This document shows, in pieces, positions 28,847-64,000 of a stretch of DNA of 64,000 nucleotides (position 1 is its first letter; every line of letters starts with the position of its first letter). The DNA comes from Thalassia testudinum (taxonomy: Eukaryota; Streptophyta; Magnoliopsida; Alismatales; Hydrocharitaceae). The notes below the pieces were generated by a model. That model saw only the letters and a program-made list of their open reading frames with translations. It had not been told where the DNA came from and did no database searches. The translations under genes and the position numbers were made by a program. The stretch spans positions 9,672,001-9,736,000 of the forward strand of contig JAZHRO010000022.1 in NCBI GenBank assembly GCA_037157565.1, read 5' to 3'.

Positions 28847-29782
28847 GCTGACCTTGCAACTATGTTGCTAAAATCAAGAGGACGTGAATAATACAATTCT
28901 GTACGTAGTTAAATTTTACCCCTTTTCAATTTTGCTCTCGATTTGGAAATTTGAACTCTATTAGATCTAATATTGAACTTGTACTGTACAGGTCTTCAAT
29001 ACATATATGAGGCCGCTATAAGCAAGAAAGATAAGGCTGTGGGCTGGGTGTGTTGTGCCAGGTTGAAGGTGTTTTGAGTTTTAGTTGGAGTAGGCTAAGC
29101 CTTTTGGGGTTGTGTGGTCCTTATGTTAATAACATAATGGGTGGTGATTAAAGGGGAGAGGTGATTGGTGTATAGGTGGACCATCAGGTTCTTGTTCTTA
29201 TGAGTTCGTTGAGTCATGACTTGTAAGCTGTAAATGAGTAAATGTTTCAAACTAGTGTTAATGCATTGAACTATGCAAAATTAGCAGAGTAAATGAATGC
29301 TTTTAGCTTCCAAGGTTCCAGTAGTGCATATAATATGGTTGTGATGTTTATGACATTCATTTTTTTTATGATAGTGTACTTGGATTCCAACAATCTATTG
29401 TTGGTATGTTTGTGATGTTGTGAGGTAAAAAATCATAAATTAGCATGACACTAGTAATTTTGCAACTTCGTCGGAGGTGACTCAAAGTTCCAAAGTTTCG
29501 TAGAAATCCAGTTCATAAAAATTTCAAGAAAGGAGATAATTCCAACCAATTTGCAGATTCTATGGTTGATTGTTTACAACACTGGTGCATGCAACTCCAT
29601 CATAGGACAAAGGTTAGATGGAAAACATGCATGTGTAACCAGGCATGTGTTCACAAATTCCCTCACATGTCAATTAGGTTGTCTAAATTCATAAATCACT
29701 AAATTCAGCTACTTTTGATTTACCTTAACTGATCAAGGTTTATTGACAGGTGATTGACCACACAGGCAGACCAGAAATTACC
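28847..29782. other. Non-coding interior of the Mutator-like element
   Basis: No gene or clear repeat recognised. A G/T-rich stretch (29030-29200) is followed by AT-rich sequence up to the solo LTR-1 insertion site. Confidence 0.4.
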
Positions 29783-31109
29783 TGTAACGACCCGGTTCCC
29801 GAGTCCCTACGAGACACGAGAACCGGACCGACTCGACTAATCCCAAGACCTAATCGCCCAACGAGGAAGTAACCAAAAGACAGTAAAATAAACCACATTC
29901 AGCATGAATATAACTAACAGTAAGGAAAGAAACTACTACAGTAGGTACCACCACAACAGTAAAACATTTATCATATAACAAGAGCTGCAGGTAAAGAAGG
30001 TACAGCGGAAACAAAAACTACTCACTAGAACAGAAACAAAAGAGGTACAAAAGACTGTGGTAACTCTACTGGACCCTACTCGGCCCAGCGTCCTCTGCAG
30101 CCGCCGACCCTGGCTGCTCAACACCTGGTCCTGAAAAAGGTAACGAGTGTAACACGTCAGCAAAACGCTGAGTAGAGTGGCAAACTAACTAAAGGCAACA
30201 GTAGAGTGTACAGTAGCTGTTATGTTCTATTACTTCCTTTATTCGCATCTTTCAATTTTTCTCACTATTTCATTTGTTTCTCAGATCCTTTACTTGATCT
30301 CGAATGTCCTCGTGGGAACGATCTTGATTGCAGTCTTTTCCAAAAGTAGAAGTAGCACGTGGTGCTCTCCTGGCCGGGAGAGTCCCCCGTGGTGATCCTA
30401 CCCTCAGTCAACCACCCCAAGGTCACTGACAGACGTAACGGTGACTACGGCACGTGCGATAAACGCATAGGTAGCTAGCCCGCACTGGCACGCGGTCAGT
30501 CGTTTCCGTTAACGGGTGCGCCCAAAGCACAGCACGGAACCAGGGCAGAGCCCTCTCAGTAACAGGGGTCCAACCCCTCCACAGTAACCAAACTGGGGCC
30601 TTGCCCCTCCACAGTCCGCGCACCCTCGCCTGACTACCCTGGTTTGCCCTAGTGGGCCTAACAAGTCGGTGAAGGAGGCTAGCAGAACCCCGGGGCCCGT
30701 GGGGTAGCTAGTACTCTCCTAACACTACTAGCTCTCCTCGGTACTACGTACACGAGGGCCAACAAGTCGGTACAGAGTGGCCAGTCCTAACCCCCGGGTC
30801 CCTGGGGTGGCTAGCTCAGCTCTGCACTAAACAGGGGGACAGTCGCTCTCCTTGGTACTCCGTACTCAAGGGCCAGCTCACTTCCCCAATTCTATTCCAT
30901 TCGCTTTCCAGGAGTTCCGCTCCTACTTCCCCGTAGGGTTCCAGAACATCTTATGTCTTACTTTCCAGTTTCACGTTCTTACCAACCATGATCCCAATCA
31001 TGTTTCTTTATTCATAACAGGCAGCTGTGAATTCAATTTACAGGCAGCTTCATATATTCCTTTCCATTTTTCCAAGACTGCATTATTACATATTCCACTA
31101 GTTTTTTTC

Positions 31110-31250
31110 CATCCTAGGATTCATGCCATATCCTAGGGTCTATCATACAATCTAGTTTTCCGGTCCTAGGATTCATGCAACACCTAGGAACTATCATTCC
31201 ATATATTTCTCATTCCTAGGATTCATGCAATGTCCTAGGTTCTAGTTATG
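31110..31250. repeat. Tandem CCTAGGATTCATGC repeat in solo LTR-1
   Basis: Three imperfect copies of a unit of about 55-65 bp, each with CCTAGGATTCATGC and a second CCTAGG, so each unit contains an inverted CCTAGG pair. The same block is present in the other LTRs of this orientation. Confidence 0.75.
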
Positions 31251-31535
31251 GTTCCATACTTTAACAAATTTTATTAATACTTAAAGCCACTCTACCAGGT
31301 ACAACGGGAGTAATGGGGGCGTGATCGGGAATCCCGCGTGCCTCCGCGACTCTCAAGACTGCAACTGAACGAGGTCCTATCACAAGGATCAAACACAAGG
31401 AGTGTCTCAAAATAGTGTATAGCTACTGTAGACAGGTAGAGGAATTAATTCTGAAAGGAACGCAACTCGAATCGCGGAAAACGGAGCCCGAACGGGCCCT
31501 AAACGGGTCGAAAAAGACGATACTGTGCAAAATCA

Positions 31536-31877
31536 GACGTCTGGAACTCCTTCCAGACGTCTTAAACGGTGGATCAGAGAATTACCTGTTCAGCGTGGTT
31601 TCCCAGACGTCCAGAAGTCTGTGGGGACGTCTGGCCTAGATCCCAGACGTCCGATGGTCCATACGGACGTCTGTAGGTCACTCCCGCCGTCTGGTAGAAC
31701 TTCCAGACGTCTGATTCGCAAAGGATGGCGAATCAGCAAACCTACGCACAGCCAACCCCCCCTCCCTCAGTACGGTCAGTCGACAAGAAGGAAGAAGAAG
31801 GCGGAAAACTCACCTTTCAGACGTCTGTATGATCTTACAGACGTCGACCTTGCCGTCTGGCTATCAACCCAGACGTC
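31536..31877. promoter_or_regulatory. Phased GACGTC array, downstream clusters of solo LTR-1
   Basis: Core hexamers (GACGTC or one-base variants) start at 31536 and 31556; then at 31606, 31626, 31646, 31666, 31686 and 31706, each exactly 20 bp apart; then at 31820, 31840, 31852 and 31872 (20, 12, 20). Most are embedded in CAGACGTCTG. GACGTC is the C-box form of the ACGT core bound by plant bZIP dimers. The pair at 31535-31562 can also form a perfect 12-bp stem with a 4-base loop. Function is inferred. Confidence 0.72.
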
Positions 31878-32339
31878 TGATCCTGGAAATTTTTCCAGAA
31901 TCAGGACCCTGCTCGGCCTCTGCTCGCGACGCCGCCCGCGTCGCACCTCGCGCTCCTGCTGCTCAGACCGCAGCAGGTCCCTCTCCGCGTCGCTCCGCGC
32001 CCCCTACACCCTCCGCCGGCTGGCCAAGCCGCTCCGGCGAGCTCGCCCTCACGGCAGAGCTCCGCCCTCACACGCCGCACCTCCGCGCTCACTGCGGCCG
32101 CCGCTGCCGCCCTTGCATCCGCTCGCTCTCGCGCACAGGAAGGAGAAGAAGGAGGAGACGGTGGAGACGGGAGGGGAGGCGTGGCCCTTTTAAGGCCGCG
32201 CGAGGAGGAGAGAGGGGGTGGCAGGCCGCCTGCAGCCGCAGAGAGAGAGAGAGGGAAAAAGAGAGAGAGAGAGAGGAATCGCGGGTCTGCGCGCACAGGC
32301 GCGCAGACGACTGTCCCGTGCGAAAATAACTGTTTTCCA

Positions 32340-32441
32340 GACGTCTGGAAACGATCCCAGACGTCTGTTCAGACGTCTGGATGTGATCCCAGACATCTTG
32401 ACCGACGTCTGGGCCTCCTCCCAGACGTCTTAAAAGACGTC
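32340..32441. promoter_or_regulatory. Phased GACGTC array, U3-side cluster of solo LTR-1
   Basis: Seven cores start at 32340, 32360, 32372, 32392 (GACATC), 32404, 32424 and 32436: spacing 20, 12, 20, 12, 20, 12, a 32-bp repeat. In element orientation this cluster lies within the first 125 bp of U3, upstream of the likely promoter. Confidence 0.78.
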
Positions 32442-32466
32442 TGGGGCACGCATTCGTTACATTACC

Positions 32467-33299
32467 AGAGCTCACAAGCATTTCAACTAAAGAGACTGGA
32501 ACTTGAGCATATCTCAAAAGAAGTCCTATGGTCGACAGTGTGTTTGTGTCAGCAAGCATTCATCACAGAGGTACAAAAGTCCATATGCGAATGAATGTGA
32601 AAGCAAATACATGTAGGGAGCCCTATGAGATAGAAAGGTTTCTATGTGCAAGAAAATGGTTTCTCACTCTAAGTTTTCATAGGCATTTGTAACCCTGACA
32701 TTTGTATATGCTGCGGGGGCAAAAAAAACATAAATAACAATCAGATCACGGAAGATATCTTCTCAACATGGTAACCTAGAATTGTCAATAGCAGGGCAAA
32801 CAATAACTTACAAACACTCTCTACATATGCATGCCTCTGCCAACTATGACGTCATTCTCCCCCACAATCATGCTTTTGCACAATAAATGATGCTTTGCTG
32901 ATTGAATTGGTCTGTCTAGATGCAGACGAAAGAAAGGATGAGCAGAAATCAAAGAGGTTGAATGAGAAGCAGACCTCTAGAGATTTGACCTAAGGAAGGT
33001 TGGAACTATGAAAAGGACTAAAGAAAGTGGATGAATGGAAGCAAAACTAGACCTTTGATTCTTGAACTCCTTCAGCCTTTTCTTGGACTGTATGGCAAGC
33101 TAGACATCTCTTGGAATATTGAGAGGTCAATGGTGAATGACGTTGATCAAAAAATGAACTAATTGTCAAGATGCATCACAAGTAGGAGACAATCAAAGAA
33201 GTTGGGAGTTAATATCAAAATGACTCTTTCCAACTTCACTAAGATCAAAGAAAGAAGTTGGATATAGGCTAGTGGATTTGTTACACATAGTTATGGAAG
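32467..33299. other. Non-coding interior of the Mutator-like element
   Basis: No gene recognised; continues the sequence interrupted by solo LTR-1. Confidence 0.4.
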
Positions 33300-34548
33300 T
33301 CTAACTATTTGTGTCTAACTTCACAAAGTTTAAATTGCTTACCATCGTGGGTACTTATGTTAAAAACTTAAATTATTTACCCAAAAATTAAATTTTCACT
33401 ACTTTAAATTATATGTTGGAAACTTAAATAATATGTTCCTAACTTAAATAATGTGTCGCACTCATACGAACCTCAAATTGCATATGACTTGAGGTATTTG
33501 TGTCTAACTTGACAAAGTTTTTATTGCTTACTATCATAGGTTACTTGTGTTAAAAACTTAAATTATTTGTTTAAAACCTAAACTATATGTCACTGATTTA
33601 AATAATTTATTGTAAACTTAAATAATATGTTTCTAATTTAAATAAAGTGTCACACTCATATAAACCTCAAAATGCACATGACTTAAACTATTTGTATCTA
33701 ACTTGACAAAGTCTATATTGCTTACCATCATGGGTTACTTGTGTTAAAAACTTAAATTATTTGCTCAAAACTTAAATTATGTATCACTGATTTAAATTAT
33801 GTATTGTAAACTTAAATAATATATCCCTAACTTAAATAATGTGTCATATTCATACAAACCTTAAATTGCACATAACTTAAACTATTTGTCTAACTTGACA
33901 AAGTCTATATTGTTTCCCATCATGGGTTACTTGTGTTAAAAACTTAAATTATTTGCTTAAAACTTAAACTATGTGTCACTAATTTAAATTATACACATGT
34001 TGTAAACTTAAATAATATGTCCCTAACTTAAATAATGTGTCACACTTATACAAACCTCAAATTGCACATGACATAACCTATTTGTGTCTAACTTAACAAA
34101 GTATAAATTACTTGTCATCATGAGTTACCTGTGTTAAAAACTTAAATTATTTGCTCAAAACTTAAATTATGTGTTTAATTAAACTTAAATAATATGTCCC
34201 TAACTTAAATAATGTATCACACTTATACAAATCTCAAATTGCACATGACTTCAACTATTTGTGTCTAACTTGACAAAATCTATATTGGTTACCATCGTAG
34301 GCTAATTGTGTTAAAAACTTAAATTATTTGCTCAAAACTTAAATTATGTGTTACTGATTTAAATTATGTATTGTAAACTTAAATAATATGTCCCTAACTT
34401 AAATAATATATCACACTTATACAAACCTTAAATTGCACATGGCTTAAACTATTTGTGTCTAACTTGACAAAGTTTATATTGCTTATCATTGTGGGTTACT
34501 TGTGTTAAAAATTTAAATTATTTGCTCAAAACTTAACTAAAAGTGCTA
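33300..34548. repeat. Tandem repeat, about 193-bp unit, six to seven copies
   Basis: The block GTGTCTAACTTGACAAAG (with variants) recurs at about 33311, 33500, 33694, 33888, 34084, 34261 and 34455, a period of 177-197 bp. Within each unit ACTTAAATTATTTG and ACTTAAATAATATGTC repeat as subunits. The array stops at the LINE E insertion; related ACTTAAATAATATGTC sequence resumes at about 43340, so LINE E landed inside it. The block 34535-34548 (AACTAAAAGTGCTA) is the left target duplication of LINE E. Confidence 0.88.
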
Positions 34549-34720: not shown

Positions 34721-37700
34721 CTAAAAAACATAGGGGAGTTGCACCTTGTCGAGGAAGAGAATACCCTGAATCTTCGAAGGAAGCGAGTGGACATTATCAA
34801 AATAAATCCAATCTACAGCACCAAGATCAGCAATATGGCGAGCCAAAGAGTTGACCATACAATGCAAAAAATCTAGCAAGACAATGTGGTGCTGATGGCC
34901 TTGAATAAGTTGGAAGATCAACTTGGCATACCATGGAACATCCACCTTCCCATTCCACCAATAATATAGCATAGAAGAATCAATCTCAACTTGAAAATTC
35001 ATCAAAGAAATAGTAGAGCAAGAAACTGCATTCCAGAGAATATGGAGGATATCACAATCAGAATTAATAACACGCATACTACCAGCAGCACCCTGAATAA
35101 AATCGCCCTTGCAATTTCTAACCACCCAACCACCAAAGATAATGCCATCCCCAAAGGAAATACTGACGTTGAGTTTGAACCCAACTGTAGGAATGACCCA
35201 AGACAATTTGAGAGGGGAGGAGTTATGAGAGCAAAACCAGGAATGAAGATTGAATTCATCCCAATGGCGCTGAAGGATAGAGGCAAAATTCTTGAGAGGA
35301 AAGGAGTCATGTATAATGCGATTCCTGATGAGCTAGATATTAGTCCATATGAAACAAATTAGACCTTTATTGATTTGAGAGGATGTGGAATTGCTCGTGG
35401 AATTCAGGATATCAGCAAAGCGGGAAGGAGAGATAAAGGGTCGATGTGCCTGATCAAAAACCCAATCAAATACATAGATGGCAAGCAGACTCTCCTAAAA
35501 TAAATGATGCGTGGTCTCACAGGAAGGAACACTACAACGGATGCATTTAGAAGCCAAAGGAATACGCAGTTGATTGATATTATCATTCGTAGGTAAGCTA
35601 TTATGAAGGATTTGCCAAGTACAGAGAGTAATTCTAAGAGGGAGTTTAAGATTCTGAAGGAGCTTCCATGATCTATTGTGAGTATGGGAGGGAAAATGAC
35701 TACCATAAACAGAGGCAACCGAAATAAAATCGGAGGTAGAAACCTTCCAAATGGGAATATCCAGAAGACTCTTAGTGGTGCAATTAGAGATGAGGGAGCG
35801 GATGTGATTTGGAATCATGTGAAGCAAAGGTGAACTGTACTCATTAGATAGAACATCTTTGACCAAAGTGGGAAGAGTAACAATAGATGGGGGGAAGGAA
35901 GTCCTTAAGCGGTTGATCACCAATCCACAAGTCGGTCCAGAAATCAATAAGACCCTCATGAATCTCCCAGCAGATGGAAGGCTTCATATGAATAAATGAA
36001 TCCCTCAGGACCTTAATCCTATGAGGGAGAAAGCCCATAAGACGGTCACCATATAGTTGCTTGACCAGCTTGCCATAAGGGGAATCATGAAAAAGGATAT
36101 TCCAAACATGTTTCATTCTAAGGGAATCGATCAGAAGGGAAAGATCCCGGATACCAAGGCCCCCCAGATGATAGGGGCGCGAAATACACTTCCAATTGAC
36201 CCAATGATGTTTTTTACTAGGGTTCCCCGAGCCCCAAAAGAAGTTAGCAAAAAGAGTTTCCAGCTTACGAAAGTTCGCTTTAGGGACTTCAAGAACGGAG
36301 AGAATATTTATAGGAATGGATGATAAGACATGCTTGATCAGAAGAAGTGTCGCAGAAGCAGAAAGGAGGTTAGCCTTCCAAGATGCAAGTTTGGCCTGTA
36401 ATTTCTCAATGATGGAATGGAAATAAGAAAACTTAGCTCTCCCCAGAAAAATAGGGCAACCCAGAGAGGTGAATGGGAAAGTACCCAGTTGGAAGCCAGT
36501 GAGTTGGAGAATACGGGAGATTTTACTAGAAGGGAAAATTTTCCCAACAAAACAGGAGCTTTTGGTCAGGCTAACTTTTTGATGAAAGGTGTTCTCGAAA
36601 CGCTTGATGAAGGCAGCTAGGTTGGAAACGGAATTAATGGAGCCATTTAGGAAAATGATAATATTAGCAGCACAAAGGAGGGCAATAGGGGGGAAACTCC
36701 TCTTTTGATGGAAAAGGGAGAAATCTTTCCCATGAGAACCTGGTCCTTTAGGCCCCGAATAAAAGTCTCCAAAAAGAGATCAAAGAGATAAGGAGAAAGG
36801 GGGTCTCCTTAGCGAAGCCCATGAGATATGGTGAAAAAAGGTGAGGACACCCCGTCAACTAGAATAGAAGACCCACTATGCTCCACACAAGCTTTAAATA
36901 AAGATATGCATTTATGAGAGAACCCAAATTTCTCCAGAATACAGTAGAGAGCAAACCATTCCACTTTGTTGTAGGCTTTCTCAAGATCGAGTTGAAAAAT
37001 AACATTAGAGCCATAGACTTTACGATCAATCCTCTGGGTAAGCTCAAAGGTGGACGCAATGTGATCAAACATAGACCTACCTTTGATAAACCCACCCTGC
37101 TCAGGAGAGATCAATTTAGAGAAAAGATTGCTAAGACGGTTCGCCAGGATCCCAGAGGTAATCTTATAACAAATGTTGTAGAGACTAATTGGCCTAAAGT
37201 CCGACAGATGCAAAGGAGAATCCTTTTTGGCAATAAGCAAAATGAAGGTATTGTTGAAGGCATGTGAGGGATTCGTATGAGAGAAAAAGGAGATGATGAC
37301 AGCCACCAAGTCTTTTTTTATGATCTCCCAAAAAGCCAAAAAGAATTCATAATTAAAACCATCAAGGCTAGGAGAGCGAACGTTGGGCATGGAAAGAATA
37401 GAGAAAATTTCATGTTCCGAAAGCACATGAGAAATAGAATAGGAATCATTATCAAAAACCAGAGTCAGAACAAAATCAAGGAAGTAGTCAAGGGTGGAGG
37501 AACCCTCAGAAGAAAGAATATTCTGGAAGTGACTGATGGAATTGGAAACAGCACTATCCCAGGATCCATTTCCCACGAGAGAAGGGAGTTGTGCAACCTC
37601 TTGGCGAATTTCCATTTAATATAGGAGAAGAACTTGTTACACCTTTCACCCTCTTTGATCCAGTTAACTTTAGCCACTTGAAGAAGGCAATCATTTTGCT

Positions 37701-38704
37701 TAATCAAGGCATAATTGAGTTTTGATTTAGTTGAATTGAGCTCAGTGTAAACCTCGTCATTCCAGAAGGAAGAGAGTCTCATGTCCAGGTCCTCATAGAG
37801 GGTCTCAAGCTTGTCCACCTACTAGTGGATATCCCCAACAGTCGATTGACTCCAAGATTTTATAGCCTTTTTTAAGATGATCAATTTGGAGAAAAAATGA
37901 TCTATAGGATTTTGGGAGGACGAAGAGGAGTAGGCCCAAATTGAAGAAACCAAATCACAAAGGGAGGGTTCCCTAAGTCACATGTTCATAAAGCGAAAAG
38001 GTCGGGACTTGGATTCGGCTGGGGACAAAAGGGTAGTGAGGATCGGAGCATGATCAGAGTTGCAATGAGGTAAGTATTTACCAAAAGGGGAGAAGGAAAG
38101 GCAGTCAGTAGAGGAGAGAATACAGTTTAGTTTCTGATAAATGCGCGCAGAACCTCTACGACCATTACACCAGGATAATTGGCTCCTACCCAACGGAAGA
38201 TCAACCAAAGAAAGGGAGTCAATAAAATAGGCAAAATCTACAGCTTGGGCATCCCTAAAAGGGTGCACCCCCACTCTTTTCAAATGGCCGAAGAATACAG
38301 TTGAAGTCGCCGCCTATCATCCAAGGAAGAGAAGAGGATTGATGGAAGTCAAATAAATACTGCCAAAGGGAGCGCCTGCAATCAATATCATAAGAAGCAT
38401 AAACTGCAGAGATGGAGATAATCTTCGAATTGAACTTACACAGGATAGATAAAGATTGGGGCATGGCATCAATAATGGAAATGTCAATCGACTTTCTAGA
38501 AAAACACCATATATTTAGGACTCTACTATCAACGCAAACATTATCAAAGTTCAAGGCAACCTTAGCAATCTGGGATTGGGCTAAGTCTGCAAAAGGCTCC
38601 ATCACAACAATCACATCAAGATGAAATTTAACAATCAGATGAGTAAGCCGATTGAGGGTGGGGGTATTTAGAATACCCCTACAATTCCAGAAGAGGCACT
38701 TCAT
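34721..38704 (-). pseudogene. LINE E ORF2: endonuclease, RT, zf-RVT, RNase H
   Basis: ATG at 38704 opens an APE-type endonuclease (MKCLFWNCRG; VVMEPFAD with Glu; MIGGDFNCIL; SDHAPIL near 38050). RT blocks at 36809-37615: FRPISLYNICYKITSGILAN, QGGFIKGRSMFDHI, FQLDLEKAYNKVEW, then a stop in GLR-stop-GDPLSPYLF. The polymerase box is LLCAANIIIF (36663-36674) in place of LLYADDIIIF, so both catalytic Asp are gone. zf-RVT region near 35500-35700. A C-terminal RNase H-like domain (34721-35206) starts FKLNVSISFGDG where NVDGS is usual, keeps VEIDSS, and ends NSLARHIAD. The remains show an L1 enzyme that once had all four domains. Confidence 0.87.
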
Positions 38705-38899
38705 AAGTCAAAGGATTTAGATCGGGATTTCGATCGACTTCTAGTAACTCTACCAGTACCACTGAAGGAATGACCACCACAGACTCCTCTAGTCTTAGGG
38801 GAAGAGTGTGCCACATATGCCAAGTCCTTAACACATGGTACTACTAGAGAATCCGAAAAACTTGAGAACTCCTCATCAGACCTGATCTCATAAGAGTTT

Positions 38900-40283: not shown

Positions 40284-41727
40284 TGTTATGACCCGATTCC
40301 CAAATCCCTATGAGACACGAGAATCAGACCGACTCGACTGATCCTAAGACCCAGTCGTCCAACGAGAAAGTAACCAAAAAGCAGTAAAGTAAACCACATT
40401 CACCATGCAAGTAACTAACAGTAACAAATGTATAGCAGTAAAGAAAAGAACTACTATAGTACATACCACCACAACAGTAGAGAATTAAAAACAGGTACAG
40501 AAACATGGAGTTTACAATAAAAGATACAAGGTGAAACAGAAATACTCACTACTACAGAAAAATGGTACAACAAAGTACAACTACTGGGCTCTACTAAGCC
40601 CAGCGCCCTCCACAGCAGCAGGCTCTGGCTGCTCAACACCTGATCCTGAAAAAGGTGATAAATGTGACACGTCAGCGAAACACTGAGTAAAGTGGCAACC
40701 AACTAGCTAAGAAAACAGTAAAGGTGGACAAGTAGCTGTTATTTTTAATTTCTTTCTTTATTTCTTTAGTTACTCTTCTTGAATTATTTCTTAGATCTTT
40801 CTCTTGATATCGAATGTTCCTCGTGGGAACGATCTTGATTACAGTCTTTTCCGAAAAGTAAAAGTAGCACGTGGTGCTCTCCTGGCCGGGAGAGTCCCCC
40901 GTGGTGGTTCTACCCTCAGTCAACCACCCCAAGGTCACTGACGGACGTAATGGTGACTACGGCACGCGCGATAAACGCACGAGTAGCTACCCCGCACTGG
41001 CACGCGGTCAGTCGTTTCCGTTAACGGGTGCGCCCCAAAGCACAGCACGGAACCAGTATAGGGCAGAGCCCTCTCAGTAACAGGGGTCCAGCCCCTCCAC
41101 AGTAACCAAACAGGGGTCTTGCCCCTCCACAGTCCGCGCACCCTCGCCTGACTACCTTGGTATGCCCAGTGGGCCTAACAAGTCGGTGTAGGACGGCTAG
41201 CTGAACCCCGGGGCCCATGGGGTGGCTAGCTCTCTCCCTACACTAGTAGCTCTCCCCGGTACTGTGTACGCGAGGGCCAAAAGTCGATACAAAGTGGCCA
41301 GACCTAACCCCGGGTCCCTGGGGCGGCTAGCTCCGCTCTGCATTAAATGGGGGGGACAGTTGCTCTCCTTGGTACTCCGTACTCAAGGGCCAGCTCACTT
41401 CCCCAGTTCTATTCTATTTGTTTTCCAGGAGTTTTACTCCTAATTCCCCATAGGGTTCATGCTCATATTTTCAGGCCAAGCCATACTAGGTTTCATCATT
41501 TCAGTTTCATTCATATTTAGCCCGTGTTTCCAACATTTAATATCAATTTATATACAAGAAGCTCAAATTTAATTTCCAAACATCAGGAATACATGAAGTA
41601 GTTACTAGCAGCAGTACTCTACATTTCACAGGCAGCTGTTATCCAATTACAGGCAATTATCATTATTCTGTTTACTATCCAAGACTGCAATTCAGGTATT
41701 CAAGACATTCGTTTCAGTGTTTCTGTT

Positions 41728-41871
41728 CCTAGGATTCATGCCACACCCTAGGATCTATCATTCAATCTAGTTTCCAGGTCCTAGGATTCATGCCATACCC
41801 TAGGATCTATCATTCAATCTAGTTTTCAGGTCCTAGGATTCATGCCATACCCTAGGAATCTATCATTTATT
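41728..41871. repeat. 52-bp tandem repeat in solo LTR-2
   Basis: Units start at 41728, 41780 and 41832, each beginning CCTAGGATTCATGCC and containing a second CCTAGG; the third is incomplete. Confidence 0.88.
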
Positions 41872-42158
41872 TCAGAGATGCATTTATGTTTGTAAGTAAT
41901 TAAGGGGAGCCACTCTACCTGCAAAATCGGGAGTGATGGGGGTGTGATCGGCAGATCCACATGCCTCCGCAACCCCGAGAGCCGCAACAGAACGAGGTCC
42001 TAACACAAGGATCAAACACAGGGAACCACTCAGAACAGAATCAAAGTATTTTAAACAGGTAGAGGAACAAATTCTGAGAAGAACAGAATCTCAAATGCGG
42101 AAATCGAACCTCAAACGGACCCTAAACGGGTCAAAAATGACAACTCTGACTCAAATCA

Positions 42159-42548
42159 AACGTCTGGAACACCTTCCAAACGTCTTAAAAGGTGGTCCAG
42201 GTCATACCTCACTCTGCGCTTCTCCTCAGACATCCAAGGATCCTGCTGAACCATCTGGACCCAGTTCCAGATGTCCTACCACATCTCCGAACGTCTGGAG
42301 ACGCTCTCCGTCGTCTGGTGCTGTGCTCAGACGTCTGAATCGCATTGGAAGGTGTGTCCCGTGCCTTTCCAAAGTGAAACCTGCACGCATATGCAACACT
42401 CTTAACATAACATGAGACAGAACTTTCGGTTGAGCGACCTGCATGGTCGTATCCGCAAAAGGAAGCGGAGGAAGGAATACGTACCTCTTAGACGTCTAGC
42501 GCTCCCTCCAGACGTCGCTCGCGTCGTCTGGACGTAGGTCCAAACGTC
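42159..42548. promoter_or_regulatory. Phased GACGTC array, downstream clusters of solo LTR-2
   Basis: Cores, many with one base changed, start at 42159 and 42179; at 42229, 42250, 42270, 42290, 42310 and 42330 (one 21-bp step, then 20-bp steps); and at 42491, 42511, 42523 and 42543 (20, 12, 20). The spacing equals that of solo LTR-1 although individual hexamers have mutated. Confidence 0.7.
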
Positions 42549-42986
42549 TGATTCTGGGAAAAATTCCCAGAATCAGAACCTCCTCGCCTTCTTTCTGCTG
42601 CGCACGACCGTGCCGCGCTCGCCTGCCTGCTGCCTGAGCTGCAGCAACACCGGGGTAACCTCCCTAGCACCACGCTCCTCTGCATGCCCGTCGGCCGGCC
42701 CCGAGCTGCTCCGGCGAGCTCGCTCTCTCTTCCTCGCACGCTCTCCCTCTTCTCCCCTCTCGCTGCACCTCCTCTCCGCACGCACCCGGCAGCAGCTGCT
42801 GCCCTCGCTCTCTCTCTCTCATGCTCACGCTAGAAGATGGAGGAGATGGTGGGGTGGTGGGTGAGGGAGAGGGAAGGGTATTTGAAGGCGTGGGGGGGAG
42901 AAAAGGCACCTGCAGGTCGGCGGGTTTCAGTCTGCGCGCGCACACGCGCAGACTCGCAATCGTACACATGCAAAAATTTATTTTCA

Positions 42987-43032
42987 GACGTCTGGGAAGG
43001 TGTCCAGACGTCTGGACCAACTCCCAGATGTC
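42987..43032. promoter_or_regulatory. Phased GACGTC array, U3-side cluster of solo LTR-2
   Basis: Cores at 42987, 43007 and 43027 (GATGTC), 20 bp apart, about 35-80 bp from the U3 end. Confidence 0.68.
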
Positions 43033-43069
43033 TTAAAAAGCGTTTGATGTCTCGGGTCTTAACAACTAG

Positions 43070-43303: not shown

Positions 43304-43462
43304 CATTGTGGCTGCATTGAGCACCACTTGTTAATTCCGTTACAAACTTAAATAATATGTCTAAGAACTTAAACTATTAGTCACTGTTTGAAATAAGCTA
43401 TTTTAGACTTAAAAAATACGTTTCAAACTTAAATATTTTGTCCTCTTTTAAAAGTGATGTGT
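43304..43462. other. Mutator-like element interior between LINE E and solo LTR-3
   Basis: Contains ACTTAAATAATATGTC-type repeats like those at 33300-34534, confirming continuity across LINE E. Confidence 0.65.
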
Positions 43463-43493
43463 TGTTAAGACTTGTGTTATTTGAGCCTTTTAA

Positions 43494-43539
43494 GACGTCT
43501 GGACTGTGGGTCAGACATCTGAACACCTTCCTAGACGTC
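43494..43539. promoter_or_regulatory. Phased GACGTC array, U3 cluster of solo LTR-3
   Basis: Cores at 43494, 43514 (GACATC) and 43534, 20 bp apart, upstream of the TATA box. Confidence 0.7.
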
Positions 43540-43660
43540 TGGAAATCAAAAATTTTGAGTACGAGCTCGCGTCTGCACGTGGACTGTGCGCAAACAGTAC
43601 TCTCGTTTTCCTTCCCTTCTCTCTCTCCCCGCCTCTAGTAAACCCTAAACCCCTCAACCT

Positions 43661-43666
43661 TATAAA
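43661..43666 (+). promoter_or_regulatory. Likely TATA box of solo LTR-3
   Basis: TATAAA within CCTTATAAACCCC, about 200 bp from the U3 end and followed by a CT-rich leader (CTTCTCCCTCTCTCG), a usual plant core promoter arrangement. It places the first GACGTC cluster upstream and the other clusters downstream of the likely start. Confidence 0.6.
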
Positions 43667-43974
43667 CCCCTTCTCCCTCTCTCGTTTTCCCCACACCAGC
43701 CACCTTCCCCTCTTCATCTCCACTCCAGCCAGAGAGCTAGCACGAGCGAGAGAGCGCGAGGGCGGTGTCGAGGAGTGGCGTGAGGAGAGGAGGAGTGAGC
43801 TCACGAGCTTGTGGGGGAGCTCACCGTGAGCGACGCGTGCGCGAAGAGGAGTACGTCGGGGGAGTCCTCCCCAACGCTGCTGCAGCCGGAGCTGTAGGTG
43901 AGGAGGCGAGGCACGGCCACGCGCGATGCGAGAGAGTGGAAGCAGGTTCTGGTTCTGCGTTTTTCCCAGAATCA

Positions 43975-44367
43975 GACGTCTGGAGTGACCTCTAGACGAT
44001 GGAGCGGACGTCTGGAGGCAGTTCCAGACATCTGAGGAGAGGGTTTCGCGAAAGTACGTCCTCTTTGTAGATATGGCCATGCAGGCTGCTTTGCTGCTAC
44101 CCTGTTGCATGCCTTTTTGAGGAGATTGTGTGGTGGCGTTGTAGGATTTGCTTCGAGAAGGCACGGGACACGCCCTCCTACGCATTTTAGACATCTGGGG
44201 AGCTTACCAGACAACTAGAAGCACTTCCAGACGTCCGGAGAGGTGGTCGAACGTTTGGAGCTGGGTCCAGACGGTCTAGAAGAGTTTCTGGACGTCTGAG
44301 GATTGACGCAGAACTTGAGGTACGTTACTGAACACTTTTAAGACGTCTGGAAGTTGTTTCAGACGTC
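43975..44367. promoter_or_regulatory. Phased GACGTC array, downstream clusters of solo LTR-3
   Basis: Cores at 43975, 43995, 44007 and 44027 (20, 12, 20); at 44190, 44210, 44230, 44250, 44270 and 44291 (four 20-bp steps and one 21); and at 44342 and 44362 (20). These are the mirror-image counterparts of the clusters in solo LTR-1 and LTR-2. They lie downstream of the likely TATA box, so they would be transcribed. Confidence 0.72.
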
Positions 44368-46339
44368 TGATTTGAGGCAGAAACCCTATTTTTGACCCGT
44401 TTAGGGTCCGTTTGATGTCTGTTTTACGCAAATAAGATATCAATATTTTCCTTGTGATTTCCTCTACTTGTTAGAAGACTTTCCATACTGTTCTGATAGT
44501 TCCTTTGTGATTTTCCTTGTTATAGGACTTCATTCCGTTGCGGGTCGGGGCTTGCTGAGGCATGTGAGCCTGCCGTTCAAGGCCCCAATACTCCTGGGTT
44601 TACTGGTAGAGTGGCTTCCCCTAATTTAAATACAAACCTGAATGCATGTGTGGAATGAATAATTATAATCTAGGATATGGCATGAATCTTAGGACGAGAA
44701 ATATTGGAAATGTCTGTATTGGATGATTGAACTGCAGTCTTGAATGTGTAGATAAAAATGATAACAACTGACTGTAAATGAATAACAGCTGCCTGTGAAA
44801 TATGAAGTACTTGTGCTAATTAACTGTTGCATGTAACTTTCCTGTTGTATACGTTAAATGACATAATGCGAGTTGCATGTATATAATTTGAGAATGGTAA
44901 TGTGAATGATGGAAATACGAGCTACCTGTGTATAACCTGGGTATGGAAATGTGAACGATAGAAATACAAGTTGCATGTGTATAATTTGAGAATGGAAATG
45001 GAAATGATTAAACCTGGTATTGAATGGCATGAGGCATTTGAGCATGAACCCTATGGGGAGATTAAGAGTAGAACTCCTGGAAATAAATAGAATAGATCTG
45101 GAAATACGTTAGGAAGTGTGCTGGCCCTTGAGTACGTGGTACCAAGGGGAGCGCACATTACCTCTTAGTGTAGAGGGGTGCTTGCCGCCCTTTGGGTTGA
45201 GACCTGGGGTAGGCTTGGCCACTTTGCATCGACTCGGTGGCCCTCATGTACACTGTACCGGGGAGAGCTACTAGTGTAGGAAGAGAGCTAGCCACCCCAC
45301 GAGGCCTGAGGTTCAGCTAACCGCAATACACCAACTTGTTAGGCCCACTGGACAAACCAGGGTAGTCAGGTAAGGGTGCGTGGATTGTGGAGGGGCGAGA
45401 CCCATGTTTGATTTTTAGGGGCTAGACTCCTGTTACTGAGAGGGTTAGACCCTATACAGTTCCGTGCTGTATTTTGGGCGCACCCGTTAACGGAAACGAC
45501 TGACCGCGTGCCAGTACGGGGTAGCTACCCGTGTGTTTATCGCATGTGCCATAGTCACCGTTACGTCTGTTCGTGACCTTGGGGTGGTTGACTGGGTGTA
45601 GGATCACCACGGGAGACTCTCCCGGCCAGGAGAGCACGTGTGCCTTCTACTCTTCGAAAAAGACTGCAATCAAGATTGTTCCCACGAGGAACATTCGAGA
45701 TCAAGAAAGAGACCTGATAAATAAACCAAGTGGTGAAAGGAATAATTAGTTAAAGAAAGTAATTGGAAAAACAACAGCTACCTGTCCACTTTTACTGCTT
45801 TAGTTAGTTGGTTGCCACTCTACTCAGCGTTTGCTGACATTGTGTACTCATAACCCCTTTTCAGGTCCAGGTGTTGAGCAGCTAGAGCTTACGGCTACAG
45901 AGGGTGCTGGGTCCAGTAGAGCCCAGTAGTAGTAGCTTCTTTTGTTGTACTCCTTTTGTAGTAATGAGTTAGACTCTTGTACCTTTTGTTTTGGTACCTT
46001 TACTTTTTGGTACTTTTATGTTCCTATACTTTGTTGCTTTTCTACTGTTGCGGTGGTAATGTGTACTGTAGTAGTTTTTAATTCTTTACTGCTGTACCTT
46101 TTTACTGTTAGTTGCATAGCATAGTGAGTGTTGTTTACTTTCCTGTTTCTTGGTTATTTCTCGTTGGACGACTGGGTCTTGGGATTAGTTAAGTCAGTCC
46201 AATCTCGTGTCCTGTAGGGATTCGGAAACTGGGTTGTAACATGCGTCCCCTTATTTGTATAAAAAATAAATAATTTGTTTGAAACTTAAAGTATTTTTCT
46301 GAAACTTAAACTATTTGATAATTGCTCAAAAGGTTTGCT

Positions 46340-58916: not shown

Positions 58917-60685
58917 TGTAACGACCCGGTTCTCGGGTCCCTACGAGACACGAGAACCGGACCGACTCGACTAATCCCAAGACCTAGTCGTCCAACGAGG
59001 AAGTAACCAAAAGACAGTAAAATAAATCACATTCAGCATGAATATAACTAACAGTAAGAAAGTACAGCAGTAAGGAAAGAAACTACTACAGTAGGTACCA
59101 CCACAACAGTAAAACAACATTTATCATATAACAAGAACTGCAAGTAAAGAAGGTACAGCGGAAACAAAAACTACTCACTAGAACAGAAACAAAAGAGGCA
59201 CAAAAGGCTGTGGTAACTCTACTGGATCCTACTCGGCCCATTGTCCTCTGCAGCCGCCGACCTTGGCTGCTCAACACCTGGTCCTGAAAAAGGTAACGAG
59301 TGTAACACGTCAGCAAAACGCTGAGTAGAGTGGCAAACTAACTAAAGGCAACAGTAGGGTGTACAGTAGCTGTTATGTTCTATTACTTCCTTTATTCACA
59401 TCTTTCAATTTTTCTCATTATTTCATTTATTTCTCAGATCCTTTACTTGATCTCGAATGTCCTCGTGGGAACGATCTTGATTGCAGTCTTTTCCAAAAGT
59501 AGAAGTAGCACGTGGTGCTCTCCTGGCCGGGAGAGTCCCCCGTGGTGATCCTACCCTCAGTCAACCACCCCAAGGTCACTGACAGACGTAACGGTGACTA
59601 CGGCACGCGCGATAAACGCACAGGTAGCTAGCCCGCACTGGCACGCGGTCAGTCGTTTCCGTTAACGGGTGCGCCCAAAGCACAGCACGGAACCAGGGCA
59701 GAGCCCTCTCAGTAACAGGGGTCCAACCCCTCCACAGTAACCAAACCGGGGCCTTGCCCCTCCACAGTCCGCGCACCCTCGCCTGACTACCCTGGTTTGC
59801 CCTAGTGGGCCTAACAAGTCGGTGAAGGAGGCTAGCAGAACCCCGGGGCCCGTGGGGTAGCTAGTACTCTCCTAACACTACTAGCTCTCCTTGGTACTAC
59901 GTACACGAGGGCCAACAAGTCGGTACAGAGTGGCCAGTCCTAACCCCCGGGTCCCTGGGGTGGCTAGCTCAGCTCTGCACTAAACAGGGGGACAGTCGCT
60001 CTCCTTGGTACTCCGTACTCAAGGGCCAGCTCACTTCCCCAATTCTATTCCATTCGCTTTCCAGGAGTTTTACTCCTACTTCCCCGTAGGGTTCCAGAAC
60101 ATCTTATGTCTTACTTTCCAGTTTCACGTTCTTACAAACCATGATCCCAATCATGTTTCTTTATTCATAACAGGCAGCTGTGAACTCAATTTACAGGCAG
60201 TTTCATATATTCCTTTCCATTTTTCCAAGACTGCATTATTATATATTCCACTAGTTTTTCCATCCTAGGATTCATGCCATATCCTAGGGTCTATCATACA
60301 ATCTAGTTTTTCGGCCCTAGGATTCATGCAACACCTAGGAACTATCATTCCATATATTTCTCATTCCTAGGATTCATGCAATGTCCTAGGTTCTAGTTAT
60401 GGTTCCATACTTTAACAAATTTTATTAATACTTAAAGCCACTCTACAGGTACAACGGGAGTAATGGGGGCGTGATCGGGAATCCCGCGTGCCTCCGCGAC
60501 TCTCAAGACTGCAATCGAACGAGGTCCTATCATAAGGATCAAACACAAGGAGTGTCTCAAAACAGTGTATAGCTACTGTAGATGGGTAGAGGAATTACTT
60601 CTGAAAGGAACGCAACTCGAATCGCGGAAAACGGAGCCCGAACGGGCCCTAAACGGGTCGAAAAAGACGATACTGTGCAAAATCA

Positions 60686-61025
60686 GACGTCTGGAACTCC
60701 TTCCGGACGTCTTAAACGGTGGATCAGAGAATTACCTGTTCAGCGTGGTTTCCCAGACGTCCAGAAGTCTGCGGGGACGTCTGTCCTATACCCCAGACGT
60801 CCGATGGTCCATAAGGACGTCTGTAGGTCACTCCCGCCGTCTGGTACAACTTCCAGACGTCTGATTCGCAAAGGATGGCGAATCAGCGAACCTGCGCACA
60901 GCCAACCCCCCTCCCTCAGTACGGTCAGTCGACAAGAAGGAAGAAGAAAGCGGAAACTCACCTTTCAGACGTCTGTATGATCTTACAGACGTCGACCTTG
61001 CCGTCTGGCTATCAACCCAGACGTT
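60686..61025. promoter_or_regulatory. Phased GACGTC array, downstream clusters of the gypsy 3' LTR
   Basis: Cores start at 60686 and 60706; at 60756, 60776, 60796, 60816, 60836 and 60856 (all 20 bp apart); and at 60968, 60988, 61000 and 61020 (20, 12, 20). Identical spacing to solo LTR-1. Confidence 0.72.
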
Positions 61026-61469
61026 TGATTCTGGAAATTTTTCCAGAATCAGAACCCTGCTCGGCCTCCGCTCGCGACGCCGCCCGCGTCGCACCTCACG
61101 CTCCTGCTGCTCAGACCGCAGCAGGTCCCTCTCCGCGTCGCTCCGCGCCCCCTGCGCCCTCTGCCAGCCGGCCAAGCCGCTCCGGCGAGCTCGCCCTCAC
61201 GGCAGAGCTCCGCCCTCGCACGCCGCACCTCCACGCTCACTGCGGCCGTCGCTGCCGCCCTCGCGTCCGCTCGCTCTCGCGCACAGGAAGGAGAAGAAGG
61301 AGGAGACTGTGGAGACGGGAGGGGAGGCGTGGCCCTTTTAAGGCCGCGCGAGGAGGAGAGAGGAGGTGGCAGGCCGCCTGCAGCCGCAGAGAGAAAAAAG
61401 AGGGAATATGCGGTCCTGCGCGCTCAGGCGCGCAGGCGACTCACGTGTGTCGAAAATAATGGATTTCCA

Positions 61470-61559
61470 GACGTCTGGAAACAATCCCAGACGTCTTATC
61501 AGACGTCTGGTTGTTATCCAAGACGTCTTGTCCGACGTCTGAGCCACCTCCCAGACGTC
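61470..61559. promoter_or_regulatory. Phased GACGTC array, U3 cluster of the gypsy 3' LTR
   Basis: Six exact GACGTC cores start at 61470, 61490, 61502, 61522, 61534 and 61554: 20, 12, 20, 12, 20. Compared with solo LTR-1 one 12-bp step with its core is missing at the U3 end. Confidence 0.78.
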
Positions 61560-61664
61560 TGGGGCACACATTCGTTACAATATAACAAACTCAAAGGAAG
61601 TTTCGTCCCCGAAACTTGCGCCAACTAGGGTGCGGGAAAAGATGTCCAAATAACCATAACAAAC

Positions 61665-64000
61665 TCAAAGAGGACCGAAGCCGGTCCGAAAAGACGTACC
61701 CGCGAAAAGCTCCGGGTACCGCTCCCGCATTGCCGCCTCAGGCTCCCAGGTAGCCTCCTCGTACCGCTGGCTCCTCCACAAAACCTTTACCAGGGGTACT
61801 TGCTTTCGTCTCAACCTGCGGATGGCTCGGTCTAGGATCTGCACTGGCCGCTCGGGGTAGGTCAGGTCGTCGCTCACCTCGACGCTCTCGTGACTCAGTA
61901 CGTGGCTGGGATCGGCTACGTACTTCCTGAGGTTGGACACGTGGAACACGTCGTGCACACCAGAAAGCTGAGGGGGAAGGGCAAGTCTGTAAGCAACGGG
62001 TCCAACCCGCTCCAGGACCTCAAAGGGCCCCACGAACCTCGGCGCGAGCTTCCCTCTCACCCCAAACCGCTGTAAGCCCTTCATGGGCGAAACACGAAGG
62101 AAGACGTGGTCCCCAACCTCGAACTGCACCTCTCTGCGTCTGCGATCTGCGTAGCTCTTCTGTCTGCTCCTAACAGTGCGGAGTCGTCTGTGGATCTGCT
62201 CAACTACCTCCTGACTCTGCCGGATCAACCTGGGGCCAACCTCCCACTTGGTCCCCACCTCAACCCAACTCAAGGGTGCCGTGCATTTCCGTCCGTACAG
62301 AGCCTCGTAGGGAGCCATGCCGATGCTCGTGTGATAACTGTTGTTGTATGCAAACTCCGCCAGGGGCAGGTGCTCCTCCCAAGAGCCCCTCCAGTCTAGT
62401 ACACAGGCACGCAAAAGGTCCTCAAGTGTCTGTATCGTGCGTTCCGACTGTCCGTCCGTCTGGGGGTGGTAAGCTGTGCTAAACCTCAACCTCGTCCCCA
62501 AAGCCTGCTGAAACTCAGCCCAAAACTGGGACGTAAAGCGGGTATCCCGGTCGGATACGATCTCCCGCGGAACTCCGTGTAGTCGCACCACATCACGGAT
62601 ATACCTCTCTGCCAACTGTGCTGGTCCCAAAGTGACTCGGATCGGCAAGAATCGTGCCGTCTTCGTCAATCTATCCACTATTACCCAGACTGCGTCGTGT
62701 CCTCGCTGGGTAACAGGTAAGCCCACCACCAAGTCCATGGTGATGCTCTCCCACTTCCACTCTGGCACTGGAAGCGGCTGAAGCGGCCCTGCAGGCCTCT
62801 GATGCTCGGCTTTCACCTGCTGGCACACTAAGCACTGCTGCACGAACTCACCCACATCCCACTTCATCCCTCTCCACCAGAACTCGCGTCTCAAGTCATG
62901 GTACATTTTCGTGTTTCCGGGATGTATGGTGAATCTGGAACCGTGTGCCTCAGTCAGGAGCTCTCTCAACAGCTCCTCGTCTCTAGGGACGCACAACCGT
63001 CCCCTCAAGCGTAACACCTGGTCTGTGAAAGAGAAGTCCCCTGGGTCCCCTGATAGTACTCTGTCGCGCAAAGACTGCAAGTACTGATCGGCCATCTGTC
63101 CCGTGATGATGCGGTCTATCAACTCTGGCCTGGTCTGCCGTGTCACCGTCACTGCCCCACAGTACCCTCGTAACTCTAGAGGTCGCCAACTGCCCACCTC
63201 CTCCAAAAGGCTCCAACTCTGTAACTGGAGACTGGCCAAGCGTGCGGGCGCCTTACGGCTCAAGGCGTCAGCCACCACATTGGCCTTTCCCGGGTGGTAG
63301 GAGATGCTGCAGTCGTAGTCCTTCAGGAGCTCCAACCAACGTCTCTGTCTCATGTTGAGCTCCTTCTGGTCAAAAAGATATCTGAGGCTCTTGTGATCTG
63401 TAAAAATCTCGAAGGTCTCACCGTACAAGTAGTGCCTCCATGTCTTCAGCGCGAAGACAACAGCTGCCAACTCTAGATCGTGGGTAGGGTAGGTATGCTC
63501 ATGGGGCTTCAATTGCCGCGAAGCGTAAGCGACCACGTGACCCCTCTTCATGAGCACACCTCCTAATCCCTGCAAGGAAGCGTCCGTGTACACAACGAAC
63601 CCGCCACTACTGTCAGGGATGGTGAGCACGGGAGCCGAGGTCAACCTCTCCTTCAGCTCCAGAAAACACGCCTCACAGGCGCCTGTCCAAGCGAAAGGCA
63701 CATCCTTCCGGGTCAACTGTGTCATAGGACGCGCAATCTGTGAAAATCCTCTGATGAACCGTCTGTAGTAACCTGCCAGTCCCAGGAAACTGCGAATCTC
63801 AGTGACTGAACGCGGTCTCTCCCACCTGAGCACTGCCTCGACCTTGGCGGGGTCCACCGCCAGGCCGTCTCCAGAGATCACATGACCCAAAAAGGTCACC
63901 TCCCTCAACCAAAACTCGCACTTGCTGTATTTGGCGTACAGCCTGCGTCGTCTCAGAGTGTCCAGAACCATCCGCAAGTGCTGTCCGTGCTGCGTCCGAT
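61665..64000 (-). CDS. pol: Gypsy pol: RT end, RNase H, integrase, chromodomain
   Basis: Open without interruption from 63977 to the stop near 61665 (770 codons from the first Met; the polyprotein continues beyond the window). Approximate residues: RT thumb and connection 1-110 ([14 protein letters not shown]); RNase H 125-245 with VYTDAS (Asp131), [14 protein letters not shown] (Asp194) and [10 protein letters not shown]; integrase zinc finger 340-390 ([17 protein letters not shown]); integrase core 405-560 with TMDLVVGLP (Asp415), IVSDRD and [10 protein letters not shown] (Glu512); GPF/GPY-type region near 650 ([18 protein letters not shown]); chromodomain at the end ([31 protein letters not shown]). 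Chromodomains of such integrases steer insertion to heterochromatin. Catalytic residues are all present. The left end lies about 85 bp from the 3' LTR. Confidence 0.94.

Follow-up and report, generated by a model that had tools for sequence, protein, structure and literature searches.

The window analysed here is a 64,000-nucleotide stretch of the genome of Thalassia testudinum (4.26 Gb in 237 contigs), and it contains several long terminal repeats (LTRs) of one chromovirus family (Table 1). LTR-1 had been described from its letters as a solo LTR and proves to be one, lying on the minus strand with TG...CA ends at 29783 and 32461 and flanked on each side by the target-site duplication TTACC (29778-29782 and 32462-32466). 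It shares 95% identity with LTR-3 across 2669 aligned positions. The element to which LTR-3 belongs has its 5' LTR in a second piece of DNA (locus L055, 2589-5242); its two LTRs are 98% identical and a duplication, CTTTC, flanks the element on both sides. This full element is a Ty3/gypsy chromovirus. Its pol carries an integrase followed by a C-terminal chromodomain, the Pfam order at 61665-63998 (minus) being rve, SH3_Tf2-1 and Chromo, with the Chromo match at E 8.3e-6 and 26.1 bits (cut-off 25.1) and the rve match at 29.4 bits, below its cut-off of 32.6. Matches to Retrotrans_gag, RVP_2 and RVT_1 in L055 place gag, protease and reverse transcriptase ahead of the integrase, and the element also has TG...CA LTR ends, a 5-bp target duplication and, after the 5' LTR, the sequence TGGTATCAGAGC, which we take to be the initiator-Met tRNA primer site. 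Among the 120 pol homologues listed, the best identity is 66%. Four further open frames of this full element (170 to 322 residues, antisense to gag or inside the LTR) gave no Pfam family match. Beside its 3' LTR, positions 61580-61620 of the minus strand are not purine-rich, in contrast with the usual polypurine tract. Two diverged LTRs of related subfamilies (40284-43060 and 43490-46241) lie near each other in opposite orientations.

Table 1. Features of the window. Positions count from the first letter of the window.
Feature	Positions	Strand	Remarks
Solo LTR-1, chromovirus family	29783..32461	(-)	TG...CA ends and duplication read directly
Array D	31536..31561	(-)	one perfect inverted pair, GACGTCTGG-N8-CCAGACGTC
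Array C	31606..31711	(-)	six cores at 20-bp intervals, one reading GCCGTC
Splice-donor-like GTGAGT	31808..31813	(-)	directly past array B; position read, function putative
Array B	31820..31877	(-)	two inverted pairs (31820-31845, 31852-31877); ACGT lacking in one half-site
CpG-rich island	31886..32335	(-)	between arrays A and B
TATA-like TTAAAAGG	32186..32193	(-)	position read, promoter role putative
Array A	32340..32444	(-)	inverted pairs 32340-32365, 32372-32397 and 32404-32429, half-site 32436-32444; period 32
Arrays of LTR-2	42159..43032	(-)	diverged relative, ~61% identical to LTR-1 across the A-D region
Arrays of LTR-4	43494..44367	(+)	second diverged relative, ~57% identical; TATAAA box; opposite orientation
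LTR-3	58917..61579	(-)	same arrays as LTR-1; 3' LTR of an element extending past the window end
Part of pol, element of LTR-3	61665..63998	(-)	RNase H, integrase, chromodomain (Pfam)

LTR-1 carries an array of GACGTC palindromes that is real, above chance and family-wide. The sequence-only reading had claimed 17 core starts; 14 of these are exact GACGTC, while 31686 and 31852 read GCCGTC and 32392 reads GACATC, and two exact cores in 31536..32441 that it had missed lie 20 bp apart at 31536 and 31556. In the 2680 bp of LTR-1 that we examined there are 16 GACGTC, against a mean of 0.77 and a maximum of 5 in 1000 dinucleotide shuffles, and seven pairs exactly 20 bp apart, of which none of the shuffles had any. 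The next most common palindromic hexamer occurs six times, with zero pairs at 20 bp. Within array C the best pairs are 31626-31651 and 31686-31711, with variant pairs at 31606-31631 and 31646-31671. Read in the orientation of the element, the order is array A, the TATA-like box, the CpG-rich island, array B, GTRAGT, array C and pair D, so that array A stands upstream of the TATA-like box and arrays B, C and D downstream. The island has a GC content of 0.68 and a CpG observed/expected ratio of 1.01, compared with 0.23 at 32470-33300 outside the LTR. Eleven of the 13 LTR-1-group copies have the box TTAAAAGG, and 8 of the 12 others have TATAAA or TATATA; GTRAGT follows array B at a fixed offset in 12 of those 13 copies and in 0 of the 12 others, the array position of two copies having come from a separate array mapping.

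The sides of the cores that face the 8-bp spacer are mostly TGG or CCA and the outer sides differ; the unit is therefore GACGTCTGG-N8-CCAGACGTC, and this inverted pair is a better unit than a lone C-box. Genome-wide, the exact unit occurs 104,548 times and its reversed-pattern control 0 times, where simple arithmetic on its 18 fixed bases would predict about 0.06 in the genome. The version with the full 12-bp palindrome on one side occurs 17,766 and 17,520 times on the two strands, the exact unit being about six times as frequent as either. Spacing is strict: spacings of 0-7 pooled give 963 matches (control 0), and spacings of 9-30 give 54,398 (control 13), the latter, among the matches listed from the first 3 Mb of one contig, being all N20 or N28 except for one N27 and one N15. 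N20 and N28 are the next sites along the ladder. Within a unit the core-to-core distance is 20 bp, and the units of array A repeat every 32 bp. For the outward pair, CCAGACGTC/GACGTCTGG, the sampled loci give a gap of 6 bp, or 12 bp from core to core. Six 8-kb pieces at preset positions included one (L060) with a run of cores at 20- and 12-bp spacing and five with 0 to 2 cores; their pairs with at most 2 mismatches had a spacing of 8 six times, 20 four times and 0 once. Of the 50 places listed for spacings 0-7, 33 carry a form without any spacer, GACGTCTGGCCAGACGTC, which may mark another subfamily.

Across the family, the arrangement at 20 and 12 bp in a chromovirus LTR withstood the comparison that had been proposed for it. 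We selected 30 loci by DNA outside the arrays, one of which (L009) is LTR-1 itself; 28 of them have at least 9 exact cores and the remaining two have 1 and 6. In these loci 270 of the 319 successive core distances of at most 60 bp are 12, 20, 32 or 40, and 167 are exactly 20. For sequence conservation we compared 25 A-to-D regions, comprising the four in the window, three of eight exact-pattern loci, three of the 30 loci chosen outside the arrays, and 15 from 13 of 16 pattern-hit loci, so that 18 of the 25 aligned rows (3 + 15) come from loci chosen for holding an exact unit; L040, L045 and L052 were left out because their A-D region was incomplete or untraced. Identity to LTR-1 among the 25 regions falls as low as 0.51. 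Mean pairwise identity among 18 representatives (less than 88% identical to one another, columns with letters in fewer than 60% of rows excluded) is 0.84 for the hexamer and 0.80 for the 12-mer, while spacers reach 0.48, nearby flanks 0.54 and the island 0.58. The cores exceed both spacers and flanks in conservation, in an alignment that is anchored by the cores and hence biased towards apparent core conservation; the genome-wide counts at spacing 8 and at spacings 0-7 are independent of that alignment.

The length of the spacer outlasts its sequence. Among the 25 LTRs, 198 of 202 comparisons with LTR-1 preserve the 8-bp length although 0.40 of the spacer bases differ, whereas background 8-bp windows kept their length in 766 of 1033 comparisons with 0.29 of bases differing; thus the length is held and the sequence is free. 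Of 216 spacer comparisons, 14 were excluded for incomplete alignment of a core, and units 1 and 2 of array A were not counted, being absent or unaligned in many copies. The conservation of these LTR arrays holds across diverged subfamilies, and duplication of a longer unit, which had been named as an outcome that would undo the earlier claim, does not explain the spacing.

We consider the arrays to be, with a probability of roughly 60%, a cis-regulatory docking platform for a dimeric and probably host-encoded DNA-binding factor of fixed reach. The motif has a fixed spacing, is conserved in diverged subfamilies and lies around promoter-like DNA. Each unit, two GACGTCTGG half-sites facing each other across exactly 8 bp, would be bound on double-stranded DNA by a dimer whose reach is fixed, the likeliest candidate being a host transcription factor. 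Neighbouring dimers would sit about two or three helical turns apart and near one face of the DNA, which could permit cooperative binding. The factor would in this way be placed on either side of what we infer to be a CpG-rich promoter, with array A upstream of the TATA-like box and arrays B, C and D downstream, and its presence on the arrays might drive transcription from the LTR. Because the one element examined has the usual gag and pol domains and no Pfam match in the four further open frames tested, the binder is probably a host protein.

Two readings of the same motif compete most directly with the docking array, one differing in the protein and the other in the nucleic acid. GACGTC is established as the C-box form of the ACGT core that is bound by plant bZIP proteins, and the sequence-only reading saw in the array a series of C-boxes occupied by bZIP dimers at helical spacing. 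ACGT is indeed kept at most of the 14 half-site positions, with 22 of 25 copies at A3l, 23 of 23 at B3 and, at the lowest of these positions, 12 of 22 at A1r. It is present, however, in only 1 of 24 copies at B2, 2 of 22 at C2 and 6 of 21 at C5, where CGTCTGG, allowing one mismatch, persists in 22 of 24, 20 of 22 and 18 of 21 copies, respectively. At B2, C2 and C5 the conserved object is thus the half-site and not the C-box, which argues against a plain bZIP array with an ACGT core at each site. Nor would a palindromic bZIP site lead one to expect the flanks observed, an inner TGG that is 84-96% constant and a different outer TCA that is only 61-67% constant; with the 14 positions pooled, base constancy along the half-site is G.90, A.81, C.92, G.89, T.99, C.93, T.96, G.91, G.84, and along the outer flank T.63, C.61, A.67. 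What is conserved is half-sites inverted across 8 bp, and the C-box interpretation is not supported as it was stated; we regard a bZIP array as quite unlikely. Somewhat better placed, though still unlikely, are RNA hairpins, in which each unit would form a stem of about 9 bp with a loop of at most 8 nt in the 5' leader and at the 3' end of the element RNA, with proposed roles in packaging, dimerisation or export, or as a source of small RNAs. Arrays B-D may act in RNA because they lie downstream of the TATA-like box. Predicted RNA folding of the arrays is strong (z of -8.9 for A, -5.6 for B, -3.9 for C and -6.4 for D), complementarity is retained in 61 of the 94 stem cells with changes on both arms, and spacer bases 1 and 8 pair slightly above expectation (46 of 98 against 35.9, P ~0.01), with complementarity at the level of chance for the spacer past bases 1 and 8. 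According to the excerpted text of PMC10760457, palindromes in the LTRs of maize Sireviruses attract small RNAs, whereas Ty3 elements generally have no obvious peak of such structure. Most of the complementary double changes, however, fall at two positions of array C, position 7 of C3-C4 (17 of 24 copies) and position 7 of C5-C6 (19 of 24), and these changes are ancestral; 415 stem cells are altered on a single arm. Among changes to one arm, those leaving a G-U pair (83) are not much more numerous than those leaving A-C (64), and the second stem pair is changed on one side in 22 of 24 copies at B1-B2 and 19 of 22 at C1-C2, with no G-U pair. The stems are mostly one common sequence rather than covarying, the overlapping pairs of the six-site ladder are mutually exclusive, and the base-pair covariation signal is weak. 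Hairpins would furthermore leave the loop freer in length than the stem in sequence, and the opposite is observed, loop length being the strictest feature of all. The data agree better with a dimer site in double-stranded DNA than with an RNA hairpin.

The two other explanations that we weighed concern what the array might do to the chromatin of the LTR and how it might have arisen, and we think both much less likely than binding by a fixed-reach dimer. As a silencing or anti-silencing platform, the array would recruit a factor that sets LTR methylation, in the way that VANC acts on the motif arrays of VANDAL DNA transposons. The CpG-rich island borders the arrays, and the excerpted text of PMC5735166 describes VANC targets as dense arrays of short motifs in non-coding parts of the element, much as here. 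The VANC motifs given there are YAGTATTAY, in the same orientation, and AGTTGTCC/AGTTGTAC, and their binder is encoded by the VANDAL element itself; the present motif is different and forms inverted pairs, no binder gene or extra domain was found in the one element examined, and VANC21 motifs face one direction without a fixed inverted spacing (PMC5735166, excerpted text). We also asked how CpG sites have decayed relative to A/T change in 24 aligned copies (29 candidate loci, less seven dropped as incomplete, giving 22 plus LTR-1 and LTR-3). The excess is about equal in the island (0.074 vs 0.045) and in U5/R (0.034 vs 0.006), regions that are hard to compare because the loci were chosen by U5/R identity (A/T change 0.006 vs 0.045 in the island), and it is larger in array B (0.158 vs 0.069) and array A (0.098 vs 0.033). 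There is therefore no sign of protection, and the decay comparison over these 24 copies does not support the idea that the island is shielded from CpG decay. We hold a silencing platform to be highly unlikely. The remaining explanation is that the array is a by-product of repeat expansion, a single unit having been duplicated in tandem and its spacing simply inherited. Array A has from 1 to 4 units among 25 copies (at most 4 mismatches of 18), so units have been gained and lost, and within LTR-1 the spacers of separate units resemble one another slightly more than shuffled spacers do (0.386 vs 0.341, sd 0.022). This likeness is small, however, and between homologous units the length of the spacer outlasts its sequence, and we give this explanation almost no weight.

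Among known systems, Tnt1 and other stress-activated plant elements carry enhancer repeats in U3, cis-motifs that serve as binding sites. The arrays described here likewise repeat a cis-motif within the LTR, with putative binding, but the Tnt1 type usually has two or three tandem copies where we find about ten inverted pairs in four modules. The excerpted text of PMC2829016 mentions LTR arrays with two or three motifs. The closest known system is the palindromic arrays of Sireviruses, and ours are the same kind of thing in another superfamily. In the excerpt of PMC2829016, the repeated motifs of Sirevirus LTRs (RM boxes) are palindromes upstream of TATA that border CpG islands, and the likeness extends to their many copies within the LTR, to their position a short way upstream of the promoter, and to their conservation in elements that have otherwise diverged. 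Palindromic boxes upstream of a TATA-like sequence and bordering a CpG island are found here as well. Sireviruses, however, are Ty1/copia elements whose boxes, as far as the excerpt goes, nearly all have a CGG-CCG core; the present element has a chromodomain pol of the Ty3/gypsy type, its core is GACGTC with a CGTCTGG half-site, its GACGTCTGG inverted pairs keep a strict 8 bp, and its arrays stand on both sides of the island.

In geometry, the nearest counterpart is the inverted repeats of auxin response factors (ARFs), although their sequence is different. ARF IR7/IR8 elements are described in the excerpted text of PMC10690724 as inverted TGTCNN half-sites at a spacing of 7 or 8, bound by a dimer of limited reach in a caliper model. 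Two inverted half-sites at a fixed spacing are common to both systems, with dimer binding described for ARFs and proposed here. The half-site here contains CGTC and no TGTC, and spacing counted in the ARF manner, as defined in PMC10690724, would be 10. We accordingly rejected an ARF IR7/IR8 element as a candidate, the first T of TGTC being absent from CGTCTGG and the equivalent spacing being 10.

The sequence-only reading knew of no description of such an array in a plant chromovirus LTR. Topical and Sirevirus queries of the open-licence PMC literature likewise gave none among the matches listed, but comparable arrays are known from Sireviruses (PMC2829016, in excerpt). Searches of the same literature for CAGACGTCTG and CCAGACGTC yielded nothing on plant mobile elements in the titles and abstract openings of the matches listed. 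Palindromic LTR arrays are thus already known in plants, and it is this motif with this spacing that looks new. Our findings suggest that CpG-rich LTR promoters surrounded by palindrome arrays also occur beyond Sireviruses.

The arrays offer an unusually clean case of spacing outliving sequence in a mobile element, which indicates a specific protein geometry. With more than 100,000 exact sites, identifying this factor would reveal how so abundant a plant element is activated, and whether that element drains or rewires a host regulator. It is conceivable, though we advance it tentatively and think it somewhat doubtful, that a chromovirus lineage has built its promoter on a composite inverted code (CGTCTGG, 8 bp, CCAGACG) recognised by an as yet unnamed plant dimer of rigid reach, and has spread more than 100,000 perfect sites through one genome, enough for a genome-wide sink or a rewiring network.

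The window holds other repeats alongside these arrays. A tandem repeat of 51-52 bp (CCTAGGATTCATGC type), separate from the arrays, lies inside the same LTRs (31105-31239, 41727-41867 and 60251-60395). Directly outside LTR-1, a 194-bp tandem array of about 6.5 copies occupies 33303-34536, with a short related stretch at 43330-43442. The open frames at 9660-11731 and 34721-38707 resemble, by eye, the reverse transcriptase and endonuclease of non-LTR retrotransposons.
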